53,090 bases of DNA from Chitinophagaceae bacterium (lineage in GTDB: Bacteria; Bacteroidota; Bacteroidia; Chitinophagales; REEL01), in NCBI GenBank assembly GCA_007695095.1, contig REEL01000076.1, positions 1-53,090 on the forward strand, read 5' to 3'. A program made the translations under genes and the position numbers. Positions within the stretch are counted from its first letter, which is position 1. Each line of letters opens with the position of its first letter. Below the pieces are notes generated by a model that searched no databases, was not told the DNA's origin, and saw nothing but the letters and a program-made list of their open reading frames with translations. Positions 3,301 through 43,924 of this stretch are shown one piece after another.

Positions 3301-3587
3301 AGGATACAATACCGGATAATGATACTGTATCTGTACCTGAAGTAGTGGATTACACAAATGTAACATTATATCCGAACCCTGGAAATAATCAGTTCACGAT
3401 TGATTTACCTTTTGATGACAGTTATTTAATTGATGTAAAAAATGTGCTAGGGCAAAAAATGGCTGAAACTGTTTTTAATGGTTCCCGTTTTGTTCAGAAT
3501 ACAGCAAACTGGCCGGAGGGTATTTACTTTATCAGAATTCAGCATGATGCAGATTTGCCGCCTTTAATTTTTAGGTGGATTAAATAG
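336..3587 (+). CDS. Secreted multidomain CotH-family protein with T9SS sorting domain
   Basis: This is a 1083-residue exported protein, probably displayed on the cell surface. Residues 1-23 form a signal peptide ending LKA. Residues ~24-165 resemble a lamin-tail domain (LFINEFLSSN, then NEDWIEIYN). Residues ~173-285 match the chitobiase C-terminal fold (RYTTDGTEP near 203). Residues ~290-690 are a CotH spore-coat-type kinase-like domain, with RTHGGASR, LLLRSSGNDW, GIHNIRERQDRFY and FDTDFSFGY. A bacterial InlB-like repeat follows near 698-773, then a beta-sandwich region. Residues ~1005-1083 are a type A T9SS sorting domain, beginning VTLYPNPG and ending GIYFIRI. CotH proteins phosphorylate spore-coat proteins in Bacillus; whether this homologue is an active kinase is not known. 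It stands alone, with a 159-base gap before cdaA. Confidence 0.88.
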   Translation: MIHNLFKVSFLLCFLVCIQPLKAQLFINEFLSSNHAGIEDMYGNNEDWIEIYNSGQSPVNLQGYYLSDDEDDKLMWSFPDTVIAPGSFLIVFASGHDIFESGEMHTNFRISIEGEPLFLSDPSGQQIDMVPAQNLLTDYSYGRYPDGAAQWYIMGNPSPEEPNNNQSNYTGILSPANVLTEGGFYQDSVEIQIAPAVTGSEIRYTTDGTEPDENSPLYTGPFKLYDRFGEPNQHSTIVTSTLGGWHGWDPPASEVFKAHNLRVKVFKPGYVPSEVVHTYFIDSTANMRYDLPVWSITTNHDNFFGQSEGLFIPQNYLNRGFEWEREAFIELFKDGQKVIGQHAGIRTHGGASRHYPQKTLRLYARNLYGNSHFEYPLFGDDHLTNDGRKQLNQFKRLLLRSSGNDWPMTLIRDAALQSLLEGIDIDKQAYTPSVAFINGEFWGIHNIRERQDRFYIATHYDLDPDSVVILKRDRNTGVYDLKEGEPGDEQHYIDMEAFIDNEDITDPVIYEQVKELMDVYNFIDFQIAHIFFANRDWPSNNNKYYRYKGAYDEDNDRTDGRWRWIVFDTDFSFGYSQTPPSHNTLVFATNDSHNSWPNASWATFLLRNLLDNESFKVAFINRFADHLNTRFKPSFVEARIDSFHNDLANVIDEHVNRWQRPFYWQGSTQNIIDFGNVRAGHVFNHIQNFFSLDEIHTVILDVDNPQRGSIKFSTLQHDEYPWTGDYFSNVPVLLKAIPEDGYEFVEWLETGDTLSEMYVYLDSDTQFTAVFEAKVAAFLPFTYPALHDVCDSDYVFDFWPPNAPALTYPQNIMFHTQDFTNTPDEQTEMVANYTCAYDLNNRPRINGLGVSGFSFINTGNPQNSETCLSENGWVGAAVLGLSTDACEDIELYFTAGTVQENSRTYNLRLQYKLSENDVWQDFEPFTEYTSSYTLHFQEFGPIPFPDYMENQDTVYLRWLYYQSPQSDDSGPRAQVRIDDIIVKLAEEPQDTIPDNDTVSVPEVVDYTNVTLYPNPGNNQFTIDLPFDDSYLIDVKNVLGQKMAETVFNGSRFVQNTANWPEGIYFIRIQHDADLPPLIFRWIK

Positions 3588-40750: not shown

Positions 40751-42337
40751 ATGAAAAAAGTATTTACAACTGTAATTGACTTCAATTTAAAGAAGACGCT
40801 TTTTCTTCTTTCGCTTTTTATTTTTTCCGGGATGCTCTATGCAAACAATGTAGAGATAACGGGTATGAGTTATTCCAATACTGATGAAGTTAGTTTTGAT
40901 GTCAGCTGGGACAACAGCTGGCGTAATACAGGAACTCCGGGTAGTACTGAAAACTATGATGGGGTTTGGATTTTTGTCAAATTCAGGGATGCATGTGCAA
41001 AAGACTCTCTTGAGCCATCTACATATTCTCATATGTGGCTGGATACTGACGTGAATGCACATACAGTTCCATCAAATGCAGCAATTGAAATAGGTACAAC
41101 CAATATAGGCGGTACAGATAGGGGTATGGGTGTCTTTATTTACAGAGATACGGATGGTTTTGGTACTTTTTCTGTTAGTAATATTACCTTGAAATGGGAT
41201 CAGCTTGCGCAGGGAGTAAGTGGCACAGACTGGGATATCAAAGTTTTTGCTTTTGAAATGGTATATATACCGGAGGGATCTTTTTATGTAGGGGATGCTT
41301 CTTCTTCAAATTACTTAAAAGATGGGTCTACAACCAGTCCTTTTCTGATTGATTCAGAGAATGCAATAACAATGGGTACTGCTGCCGGTAGTTTAAATCA
41401 GGTAGGTACCAACTTATCCGGTACTTTACCGGCAAATTTTCCTAAGGGATTTGATGCTTTTTGGGTAATGAAATACGAAATAACACAACAGCAATATGTA
41501 GAGTATCTGAATACTCTAAGCCGAACAGATCAGAATAGTGCAGTGGCTACTCCTGTTCCTCCCGGAATTATTTCTATTGCATCTTCTGACAGATATGTAA
41601 TGAGTAGAACTATTTCTCCAAGTTTTAGAAATGGTATTAGAATGCCGGAAACTTTTCACCCTACGCAACCAATTGAATTCTTTAATGACCTTAATTATAA
41701 TGGTATAGAAAATGAAATAAATGACGGGCAAACAATAGCATGTAACTTTATCACAAATGCTCAAATGAGGAGATTTTTAATTTGGTCAGCCTTAAGACCA
41801 ATGAGTGAGCTTGAATTTGAGAAAATTTGCAGAGGCCCGGAATCGGTTTACGGGGGGGTAATTACAAATGAATTGGCCTGGTCTTTAGCCGGCAACATGC
41901 CGGGAACCTTTACTTCTGTAGCCGGAGTTGTTAATTCGGGAGCTCCGGATGAATTGCCTAATAATACGGGAATAGGATTAGTGCACAATTCATCAAATCC
42001 TAACGGTCCTATTAGAGTTGGAGCTACATATACATCGGCAACAGACAGACTTGAAGCAGGTTCTTCTTACTATGGAGTTGCTGACATGAGTGGAAATGTT
42101 TACGAATTTGTAATACGTGTAACAAGTAATAATTCTTTTTCCGGTGCTGTTTATGGAAATGGGGGAATTTCATGGAACAATCCTGCCGGTTGGACTATAC
42201 ATGGCTATAGAGGTGGAGCATTTGGATTTGGTAGTTCTACTGCACACCTTCCAACCTCAAGCCGAGTTTATTCATCAGGTTCTTCAATTCCAACAACATC
42301 AGCTGGCCGAAATACCGGTGGCAGAGGGGCCAGATAA
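40751..42337 (+). CDS. Secreted FGE-sulfatase (SUMF1) fold protein
   Basis: A 528-residue exported protein with an N-terminal signal ending near GMLYA. Residues ~35-175 form a beta-domain of unknown type. Residues ~176-528 have the formylglycine-generating-enzyme fold: MVYIPEGSFYVGD, FWVMKYEITQQQYVEYLN, RPMSELEFEKICRG, VADMSGNVYEFVIR and a final GYRGGAFGFG with GRNTGGRGAR. The cysteine pair used by true FGE oxidases near the C-terminus is absent: the only cysteines after the signal are in DACAKD, TIACNF and EKICRG. It is therefore probably a structural or binding domain. It precedes the 29-residue-repeat protein by 29 bases, suggesting a co-expressed pair. No T9SS tail is visible. Confidence 0.82.
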   Translation: MKKVFTTVIDFNLKKTLFLLSLFIFSGMLYANNVEITGMSYSNTDEVSFDVSWDNSWRNTGTPGSTENYDGVWIFVKFRDACAKDSLEPSTYSHMWLDTDVNAHTVPSNAAIEIGTTNIGGTDRGMGVFIYRDTDGFGTFSVSNITLKWDQLAQGVSGTDWDIKVFAFEMVYIPEGSFYVGDASSSNYLKDGSTTSPFLIDSENAITMGTAAGSLNQVGTNLSGTLPANFPKGFDAFWVMKYEITQQQYVEYLNTLSRTDQNSAVATPVPPGIISIASSDRYVMSRTISPSFRNGIRMPETFHPTQPIEFFNDLNYNGIENEINDGQTIACNFITNAQMRRFLIWSALRPMSELEFEKICRGPESVYGGVITNELAWSLAGNMPGTFTSVAGVVNSGAPDELPNNTGIGLVHNSSNPNGPIRVGATYTSATDRLEAGSSYYGVADMSGNVYEFVIRVTSNNSFSGAVYGNGGISWNNPAGWTIHGYRGGAFGFGSSTAHLPTSSRVYSSGSSIPTTSAGRNTGGRGAR

Positions 42338-42366: not shown

Positions 42367-43668
42367 ATGATGACAAGAGCTATTTTATTATTGTTGCTAA
42401 CGGGTTTTACTGCCTTTCAGGGTTTTGCCCAATATACAGGCGGAGATGCTTCGGTATTATCTTCAAAGGCATTGATAGTAACATCTTCTTGTGTAACATT
42501 TGCTTCATCCGATATTTATTCCGGAGGAACGGAAGGTGGTTTTACATCAGCTTCCGTAATTTCAACACCCGTTTGTCAAAATTTTAATTTTACATCTGAT
42601 ATATACAAAGGGGGAACTGGGCAGGGTTTAGCTGTATCCGGTTATTCCCCAGTAGTTAATTGTTCTTCATTCAATTTGATGTCTGATATATACAAAGGAG
42701 GAGCGGGTCAAGGATTAGCTATTTCAGGCTTTTATCCAACTGTGAATTGCGCAACATTCAACTTAGCCTCTGATATTTACAAAGGAGGAGTTGAAGATGG
42801 AGCTGCTGTAAGTGAAATAATCAAAAATATAAATTGTGGTGCCGTAGTTGCAGGTTCTCCTTATAATGGGGGAGATGGTCAGGGATTTGCCTCTTCAGCT
42901 TTTTTTGCTCCGGTAAGCTGTAACAGCTGGGATGTTGTTTCAACTATTTATAAGGGAGGTATTGAAGATGGTTTTTCTTCTGCTTCTTTAATCTCTTATC
43001 CTGCTTGTCCTTCATTTATTGTTTTATCAGACATTTATAAAGGTGGAGTGCAGGATGGAGTTTCGGCCTCAACTGTGATTTCTACCTCGCTATGTCCATT
43101 ATTCAATATTGTGTCCGATATTTATAAAGGGGGAGAAGGGCACGGATCTTATGCGGCTTCACTTCCTATGCATTTAGTCCCGGGGGTTACTATAGATGCC
43201 TCTACCTTGTCTATTTGTGCAGGAGAAACGATTATTTTCACAGCTTTCCCTGTGGCAGGGGGTCTGTTACCGGAATTTGAATGGTTTGTAAATGGGGTTA
43301 GTATAGGTGTAAGCCCGGGAGATTCAATTCAATTAAACAATTTAGTGGATGGAGATGAGATTAATGTTGAATTGACTTCATCTTTAGCTTGTGCCTCACC
43401 AACAGTTGCAATGTCTTCTGCGCTTACAGTCAGTGTAATTACCGTCGCCATTAAAATCTGGAATGGTAGCGTAAGTGATGACTGGCATAACCCCTTGAAT
43501 TGGAATTGTGGAATACCAACTACTTCAGATATTGTTTTTATTCCGGCCTCTCCATCGAATCAACCGATGATTTTTGGGGGTAATACAGGCTATTGTCAAA
43601 ACATTGAATTAGAGGGAGGGGCATCATTGACTATTCAGTCTTCAGGAGTTCTAAATGTAAATCAGTAA
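42367..43668 (+). CDS. Secreted protein with ~29-residue tandem repeats carrying one Cys each
   Basis: A 433-residue exported protein; signal peptide 1-22 ends FQGFAQ. Residues ~48-265 hold eight tandem repeats starting near 48, 77, 106, 135, 164, 192, 221 and 250. The consensus is S-D-I-Y-K-G-G-x2-[QDG]-G-x2-x-S, with a Cys about 22 residues in for most copies. A partial unit (YTGGDASV ... SSC) precedes them. An Ig-like segment with two Cys (SICAGETIIF ... SLACASP) spans ~272-355. The C-terminal ~70 residues begin IKIWNGSVSDDWHNPLNWNCG, a common Bacteroidota surface-protein motif, and stop at LNVNQ. Relatives of that motif usually continue to a T9SS sorting domain, which is missing here. Function is unknown; adhesion is a guess. 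Confidence 0.72.
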   Translation: MMTRAILLLLLTGFTAFQGFAQYTGGDASVLSSKALIVTSSCVTFASSDIYSGGTEGGFTSASVISTPVCQNFNFTSDIYKGGTGQGLAVSGYSPVVNCSSFNLMSDIYKGGAGQGLAISGFYPTVNCATFNLASDIYKGGVEDGAAVSEIIKNINCGAVVAGSPYNGGDGQGFASSAFFAPVSCNSWDVVSTIYKGGIEDGFSSASLISYPACPSFIVLSDIYKGGVQDGVSASTVISTSLCPLFNIVSDIYKGGEGHGSYAASLPMHLVPGVTIDASTLSICAGETIIFTAFPVAGGLLPEFEWFVNGVSIGVSPGDSIQLNNLVDGDEINVELTSSLACASPTVAMSSALTVSVITVAIKIWNGSVSDDWHNPLNWNCGIPTTSDIVFIPASPSNQPMIFGGNTGYCQNIELEGGASLTIQSSGVLNVNQ

Positions 43669-43845: not shown

Positions 43846-43916
43846 GGTCGAGTGGCCGAGTGGCTAGGCAGAGCTCTGCAAAAGCTCGTACAGCGGTTCG
43901 AATCCGCTCTCGACCT
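43846..43916 (+). tRNA. tRNA-Cys (anticodon GCA)
   Basis: The acceptor stem GGTCGAG (43846-43852) pairs with CTCGACC (43909-43915), with T as discriminator base, usual for tRNA-Cys. The anticodon stem GAGCT/AGCTC encloses the loop CTGCAAA with anticodon GCA at 43878-43880. The T arm AGCGG-TTCGAAT-CCGCT is standard. CCA is not encoded. The gene is 71 bases without CCA. Confidence 0.97.
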
Positions 43917-43924
43917 CAAACACT

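Follow-up and report, generated by a model that had tools for sequence, protein, structure and literature searches.

The C-terminal tails of T9SS cargo listed in the available text of one review are of types A, B, and C; the type A C-terminal domain (CTD) is an Ig-like beta-sandwich, and genes for type B proteins tend to cluster with those for PorP/SprF (PMC10202324). A further source treats types A and B together with their shuttles and assigns a type A CTD to RemA itself (PMC12618676), and another deals with short and long tails of the kind known from other species (PMC11969387). In the available portion of the RemA structure report, only the CTDs are described as resolved (PMC10994853). Two described systems outside this list of tails are also close to the locus considered here. 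The PorK/GldK/GldJ proteins are FGE-like hubs, in which a cysteine-free FGE fold, as described for PorK, serves for docking (PMC12421860), and amnionless anchors cubilin by docking one beta-helix to another (PMC6283879). In the open-licence literature we found no description of the C-terminal domain analyzed below, which we term the WNW domain, none of the SUMF1-like/YxGG gene pair to which it belongs here, no new type of T9SS CTD besides the review naming type C, and no paper naming both PorU2 and PorV2.

The window analyzed here is a stretch of 53,090 nucleotides (contig REEL01000076.1) from a Chitinophagaceae bacterium, and its gene at positions 42367 to 43668 encodes a repeat protein that ends in a WNW domain. 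Like the type A CTD (TIGR04183/PF18962), this domain spans some 70 to 75 residues, occupies the extreme C-terminus of unrelated cargo, and takes the same position in homologues, but it has no sequence match to type A and resembles the opening part of a beta-helix. Type B and type C (ChiA-like) CTDs are likewise alternative tails, type B closing two choice-of-anchor L proteins of the same genome; unlike type B genes, however, the four genes of this genome that end in WNW have no PorV-, PorP-, or SprF-type neighbor that we could see by eye (one of them, on C161, lies at a contig end). RemA contains the same domain, there in an internal position: a profile of the tail matches residues 891 to 961 of the 1436 in PDB entry 8gl6_D (E 3e-14). 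Pfam matches at E ≤ 0.01 among 40 terminal tails (profile A6) are to Amnionless in three and to G8 in two, a weak likeness that the window tail does not share, and to our knowledge the beta-helix domain of amnionless is not a C-terminal export tail. Because the profile matches RemA, and a small number of members match Amnionless or G8, we suggest that the WNW tail is the start of a beta-helix. The other gene of the pair, for which the FGE-like hubs offer a model, is not GldK (best partial match 14 bits against a cut-off of 350).

Architecture of the repeat protein

The open reading frame at 42367 to 43668 on the + strand, the second gene of the pair, runs from ATG to TAA and encodes 433 residues for which Pfam, NCBIfam, and PDB sequence searches returned no significant match. 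A signal-peptide-like start (MMTRAILLLLLTGFTAFQGFA; 42367 to 42429, cleavage site placed by eye) leads directly into YxGG units from residue 23, and these give way to an Ig/PKD-like segment. The protein closes with a C-terminal domain of roughly 75 residues, the last of which read LNVNQ. The motif YxGG recurs at residues 23, 51, 80, 109, 138, 166, 195, 224, and 253, giving nine starts at a spacing of 28 to 29 residues. Unit 1 (42433 to 42516) and unit 5 (42778 to 42861) have 28 residues; unit 2 (42517 to 42603), unit 3 (42604 to 42690), unit 4 (42691 to 42777), unit 6 (42862 to 42948), unit 7 (42949 to 43035), and unit 8 (43036 to 43122) have 29; and a partial unit 9 (43123 to 43167) closes the array, all on the + strand. 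Six of the nine starts read SDIY[K/S]GG and the others AQYTGG, GSPYNGG, and STIYKGG. The initial annotation had counted eight copies starting SDIYKGG; the repeats are real and eight of them carry a cysteine, but there are nine starts and only six are of the SDIY[K/S]GG form. Its observation that most units hold one cysteine at a fixed offset holds up well, with a cysteine at unit position 20 in each of units 1 to 8 and none in the partial unit 9.

The periodicity is strong, with 36% identity at an offset of 29 residues, whereas the highest value among 2000 shuffled sequences was 17%. Since seven units compared without gaps are only 42 to 69% identical in DNA, the sequence argues for an old array and against a duplication that is recent or was produced in assembly. 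Structure prediction points to one beta-solenoid coil per unit, in a weak model: AlphaFold2 run on an eight-row alignment gave a mean pLDDT of 56 (model numbering starts at protein residue 21), with ten-residue blocks at 57 to 80 in the repeats (model residues 51 to 150), 59 to 84 in the tail, and 31 to 43 in the PKD part, and units 1 to 4 folded from two rows gave 56.6. Foldseek returned no match in the PDB at E ≤ 0.001. The VIA structure comparison lists beta-helix proteins, the best being the SufB-SufC-SufD chain 5awf_E (Z 11.4, rmsd 4.3, 222 residues aligned), although a Z below about 13 for repeats perhaps reflects a common arrangement only. The structure searches are thus merely compatible with beta-solenoid repeats.

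The Ig/PKD-like domain (approximately 43168 to 43431, + strand), which Pfam leaves unnamed in this protein, was delimited by matches over residues ~266 to 359 to repeats of large proteins in relatives, with which it shares up to 45% identity. The WNW domain, our candidate sorting or anchoring tail, follows at 43441 to 43665 (+ strand; profiles A1 and A6) and contains cysteines 381 and 410. The earlier description, in which a secreted protein of repeats with regular cysteines and an Ig-like segment lacks any known T9SS tail, is borne out, in that Pfam and NCBIfam find no tail: neither type A (TIGR04183/PF18962) nor type B (TIGR04131/PF13585) is matched at E ≤ 1, and an NCBIfam scan, which covers the type C (ChiA) tail only if that library contains a model for it, gave no match for this protein or for the WNW tails. 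The next gene downstream, outside the pair, is a tRNA-Cys (gca) at 43846 to 43917 (+ strand). The window's first large gene ends in a type A CTD at 3366 to 3548, which places ordinary T9SS cargo on this contig as well.

A conserved pair with a SUMF1/FGE-like gene

Immediately upstream, at 40751 to 42337 on the + strand, lies a gene that the initial annotation left out, and with which the window gene forms a pair. Its product of 528 residues has a signal-peptide-like start, ends in GGRGAR, and contains an FGE/SUMF1 domain (PF03781 FGE-sulfatase, 35.4 bits against a cut-off of 23.3); Pfam and NCBIfam recognize no C-terminal sorting tail in it. The same genome encodes a paralogue on contig C62 (32% identity) and a third copy on C118. 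A profile of one repeat unit (A2) found only the window gene at low E-values in this genome, with three more matches at E 0.46 to 0.88 in short frames. It was a three-unit profile (A3) that led to recognition of the gene pair, as it matched in four more genomes of 396, each with a SUMF1-like neighbor.

We assembled 44 SUMF1-like loci from the best matches plus three others and excluded one (L099), whose contig stops 281 bp past gene 1 and whose motif match looks spurious. A YxGG-protein gene adjoins 37 of the remaining 43 SUMF1/FGE-like genes, nearly always downstream and upstream only in G198 and G228; the matched backgrounds are 7 of 213 other open reading frames of the same loci and 35 of 698 in other loci. 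The genes without such a neighbor are those of G097, G115, G145, G075, G127, and G109, two of which have less than 600 bp of room. Judged from these sequences, the pair is common to several families of the order. The 119 units of the partners follow the consensus [YF]-x-G-G-x-G-D-G-aromatic with periods of 20 to 29 residues, and the first unit falls within residues 19 to 36, near the end of the signal peptide, in 25 of 37 partners. The shortest partner seen (L102, 123 residues) has a single unit and ends in a type A tail. At nine loci (L098, L101, L102, L104, L106, L109, L113, L115, and L120) a third gene that by eye resembles a TonB-dependent receptor comes after the pair, and at two more (L118 and L122, from G140 and G120) the partner's units read WxGG and are followed by stretches that look fibronectin-like by eye, with a [YF]PNP motif ahead of the locus end.

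The catalytic and copper cysteine pair of FGE has the motif GGSxxCxxxxC. None of the 43 SUMF1/FGE-like proteins contains it, and because this pair is missing we do not favor FGE catalysis on the repeats by gene 1. Conservation of the pair, absence of the cysteine motif, and the precedent of PorK lead us instead to propose, by analogy, that gene 1 may dock YxGG units through its groove.

The WNW domain as a recurrent protein end

The genome of origin (3.49 Mb in 186 contigs) contains the WNW domain five times. Four copies close their proteins, on C76 (the window contig, ending LNVNQ), C62 (LRVND), C161 (LNVNEP), and C86 (LEIHQ); the fifth, on C88, is internal to a protein that continues to a type A tail by profile. 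Among 396 genomes of the same order, with at most 14 candidates scored per genome, 173 have a WNW profile match at E ≤ 1e-6. Of 143 distinct copies collected, 115 have a stop codon inside the sequence and 28 run off its end, and the stop lies 0 to 9 residues past the domain in 40 of the closed copies, 11 to 12 in 2, 30 to 99 in 7, 100 to 299 in 3, and at least 300 in 63. Terminal copies, 0 to 12 residues before the stop, thus number 42 of 143 and come from 26 genomes of the order, a count that establishes a recurrent form rather than a frequency because the choice of profile and regions was biased toward terminal copies: four terminal copies served to build profile A1, whose matches were taken best first, 19 of 20 initial regions were WNW matches of other genomes hand-picked partly for short frames, and 60 further regions followed the E-value list minus matches already included. 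The PorU2 genes of G198 and G304 supply two more terminal copies beyond the 42.

After removal of near-copies, and with the window stretch included directly, 40 terminal copies share a common end in the alignment, a few residues past the last strand xLxV, and close with the strand pattern LxI..GxxLxV. Among terminal copies, at least two cysteines are present in 32 of 40, against 26 of 93 internal copies. On a tree, terminal copies cluster, with 12 state changes against a shuffled mean of about 35.6 (0 of 500 shuffles as low); the tree rests on only 71 columns, gives good support to 13 of its 128 inner branches, and kept 131 of the 143 copies, rows shorter than 55 residues and those 13 to 99 residues from the stop being dropped. 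Across the phylum, the 30 best loci hold 35 copies, of which 3 are terminal, all from this order, and 25 meet no stop before the locus ends, though they extend for at least 146 residues. Because the terminal copies of this phylum sample are confined to the order, the terminal use of WNW may represent an innovation of the order. Four YxGG partners (L112, L116, L119, and L125, from G043, G243, G391, and G030) add 43 to 73 residues of apparent beta-helix between WNW and their stop codon and have no type A motif.

These comparisons bear directly on the LNVNQ stop, which had been suspected of marking a truncation. Since the proteins of C62, C161, and C86 end at this position, as do 38 copies from 25 other genomes, the sequences argue that the gene is intact and its stop a recurrent natural end. 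Between that stop and the next long open reading frame (44040), the longest other stop-to-stop frame on the + strand has 47 residues, under the 72 positions of a type A tail, which rules out a hidden, frameshifted CTD downstream; a type A search of the genome, with 150 of 246 candidates scored, matched this contig only in the first large gene of the window. Truncation or assembly error, which we rate as a very small chance indeed, could appeal to longer frames in relatives, and the initial annotation had regarded such frames as decisive. They exist, with type A-like ends seen by eye at L036, L038, and L040 and by profile on C88, but truncation does not follow from them, as the shorter end recurs at an identical position elsewhere and no frame of type A length lies downstream. 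We reject it.

Cargo and exchange with known tails

The proteins that end in WNW are otherwise unrelated, as befits a class of sorting domain: the domain occupies the extreme C-terminus of diverse secreted cargo in 42 copies from 26 genomes. In the genome of origin, the C62 protein sets YxGG units amid fibronectin-III-like stretches before a PKD-like domain and its WNW end, and profiles identify choice-of-anchor L in the C161 protein and DUF7948 in the C86 protein. Elsewhere, the domain terminates M1 peptidases (G331, G269, and G150), an M43 peptidase (G143), M12B-like peptidases (G303 and G393), an M23 peptidase (G393), a C10 peptidase (G162), a choice-of-anchor Q protein (G046), a C25-containing PorU2 sortase (G350), and very large proteins in frames of 1373 to 3069 residues (G047, G341, and G020). 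Type A models find nothing at E ≤ 0.01 in the C62, C161, and C86 proteins, and the WNW tails have no NCBIfam match and no Pfam sorting-domain match.

Homologous proteins exchange this end for established ones, each recognized by profile. Of 37 YxGG partners, 18 have a [YF]PNP type A motif close to the end, 7 end with WNW (6 by pattern and that of G198 by eye), and 12 have neither, and the type A profile TIGR04183 matches six of seven partners scanned (C118, L102, L104, L109, L246, and L247, but not L120). Two other choice-of-anchor L proteins of the same genome (C119) score over the cut-off for type B (TIGR04131), whereas that of C161 ends in WNW. Paralogues of PorU2 end in WNW in G350, G069, G198, and G304, and in one of G143 the end is type A (E 4e-13). 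WNW is thus exchangeable with type A among YxGG partners and PorU2 and with type B among choice-of-anchor L proteins.

At four loci (L131, L136, L041, and L043), genes with a terminal WNW lie beside tail-fibre-like genes containing the motif NVGIG; of the NVGIG genes scanned, two have Peptidase_S74 chaperone domains and one has a sub-threshold Fib_succ_major match. A constant neighborhood of this kind was considered and set aside, the motif being found in only 4 of 21 contexts (C62, C86, G047 C43, and G007).

T9SS machinery and PorU2/PorV2

The genome of origin has the T9SS, with SprA at 2747 bits and at least 150 type A matches, and a PorU2 (793 bits) whose own C-terminus is not WNW. PorU2 and PorV2 (NF052324 and NF052325) have putative functions in NCBIfam. 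In four genomes of one genus, the gene order is a PorU2 ending in WNW, PorV2, and a second PorU2 with a different C-terminus (L140:1-10848, from G350 C64; L319; L320; L321), PorV2 being identified by profile in G350 and by eye in the other three. One PorU2 paralogue of G143 (L327:7107-12479) terminates with strands patterned like those of a beta-helix, LEDGAILELKDGLELKLEYE, matches no sorting domain, and adjoins the paralogue of that genome whose type A tail is confirmed by profile.

PorU2 is nearly universal, scoring over the cut-off in 71 of 80 genomes tried. Its co-occurrence with terminal WNW gave p 0.036 with 26 terminal genomes, or 0.14 if the split G331 gene is counted as absent; G304 was then found to have a terminal copy, and with 27 genomes the values become 0.031 and 0.12. 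With PorU2 so common, we do not regard this co-occurrence as decisive; the comparison genomes may also contain terminal copies.

Discussion

We put the probability that the WNW end is a C-terminal sorting or anchoring domain replacing the known T9SS tails at roughly 0.6. The gene pair, the repeats, the natural terminus, the occurrence of the tail on unrelated cargo, and its exchange with types A and B are shown by the sequences. In the mechanism that we propose, the window gene is intact and stands second in a conserved pair of genes for surface proteins. The first gene would supply an exported protein of the FGE fold (SUMF1-like) lacking the catalytic cysteine motif, and gene 2 a secreted protein bearing one to nine YxGGxGDG units, which in most cases begin at the mature N-terminus. 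In the window protein these units probably stack into a beta-solenoid stalk that precedes the PKD-like domain. The gene 2 protein would cross the inner membrane by Sec, and the WNW domain, in place of a type A tail, would direct export and surface holding by the T9SS or its PorU2/PorV2-type branch, with the FGE-like partner perhaps docking the YxGG units in its groove. A fuller version of this proposal, which we offer tentatively and would bet against as a whole, makes WNW an additional class of T9SS sorting signal with a beta-helical instead of an Ig-like fold. Such a signal would be interchangeable with types A and B, its reader would be a PorU2/PorV2 branch whose sortase bears the same tail in one genus, and YxGGxGDG would be the docking tag for the FGE-like partner.

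Several observations speak against a sorting role. Most WNW copies seen are internal, as in RemA, where a role as C-terminal signal is impossible, and a terminal copy could be a structural end cap only. The four terminal genes of this genome show no PorV- or PorP-like neighbor by eye, its own PorU2 ends differently, PorU2 is so widespread that its presence says little, terminal copies in the phylum sample come only from this order, gene 1 has no recognized tail, and the fold models are weak. A minimal beta-helix might alternatively dock end-on to a surface beta-helix as an anchor or oligomer, with export left to some other feature or achieved together with a partner. We consider this unlikely, though it ranks first among the alternatives: the Amnionless and G8 matches among the A6 members and the LxI..GxxLxV strand pattern at the tail end speak for such docking, but it leaves unexplained how proteases and proteins of 2000 residues cross the outer membrane and why WNW trades places with the export signals of types A and B. 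Somewhat less probable still is that the proteins stay periplasmic, having lost a type A tail and kept only the first coil of a beta-helix. The internal copies that continue to type A or type A-like ends (L036, L038, L040, and C88) fit such a history, and the partners that stop 43 to 73 residues past WNW would resemble its intermediate stages. This account, however, requires many losses at the same residue in 26 genomes with the cysteine pair kept in 32 of 40 copies, and it sits poorly with the sequence clusters that terminal copies form, with the four retained by one genome, and with the presence of WNW on peptidases of secreted kinds.

The initial annotation suggested that the regular cysteines could form a disulfide ladder or bind a metal, and a ladder or metal-binding solenoid could then be the point of the array. 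Their identical unit position across eight units is suggestive, and in the weak model with one unit per beta-solenoid coil they would stack. Yet 27 of 37 YxGG partners have no cysteine inside their units, and a fixed cysteine in all or nearly all units is limited to the proteins of C76, G096, C62, and G283. A disulfide ladder is not needed, because few relatives keep regular cysteines; we consider it improbable that the cysteines are the point of these proteins, and a ladder or metal site in the window protein, if present, may be a local decoration.

A sorting or anchoring role for WNW, the reading that we prefer, would matter chiefly for the inventory of surface proteins. Prediction of these proteins in Bacteroidota depends on recognizing type A, B, and C tails, and the Pfam and NCBIfam sorting models miss the WNW ends tried. 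If WNW is a sorting domain, its small size would suit it to reporter fusion, a role would be suggested for the putative PorU2/PorV2 proteins, and its cargo would constitute a new class of T9SS substrates that includes proteases, choice-of-anchor proteins, and very large surface proteins.
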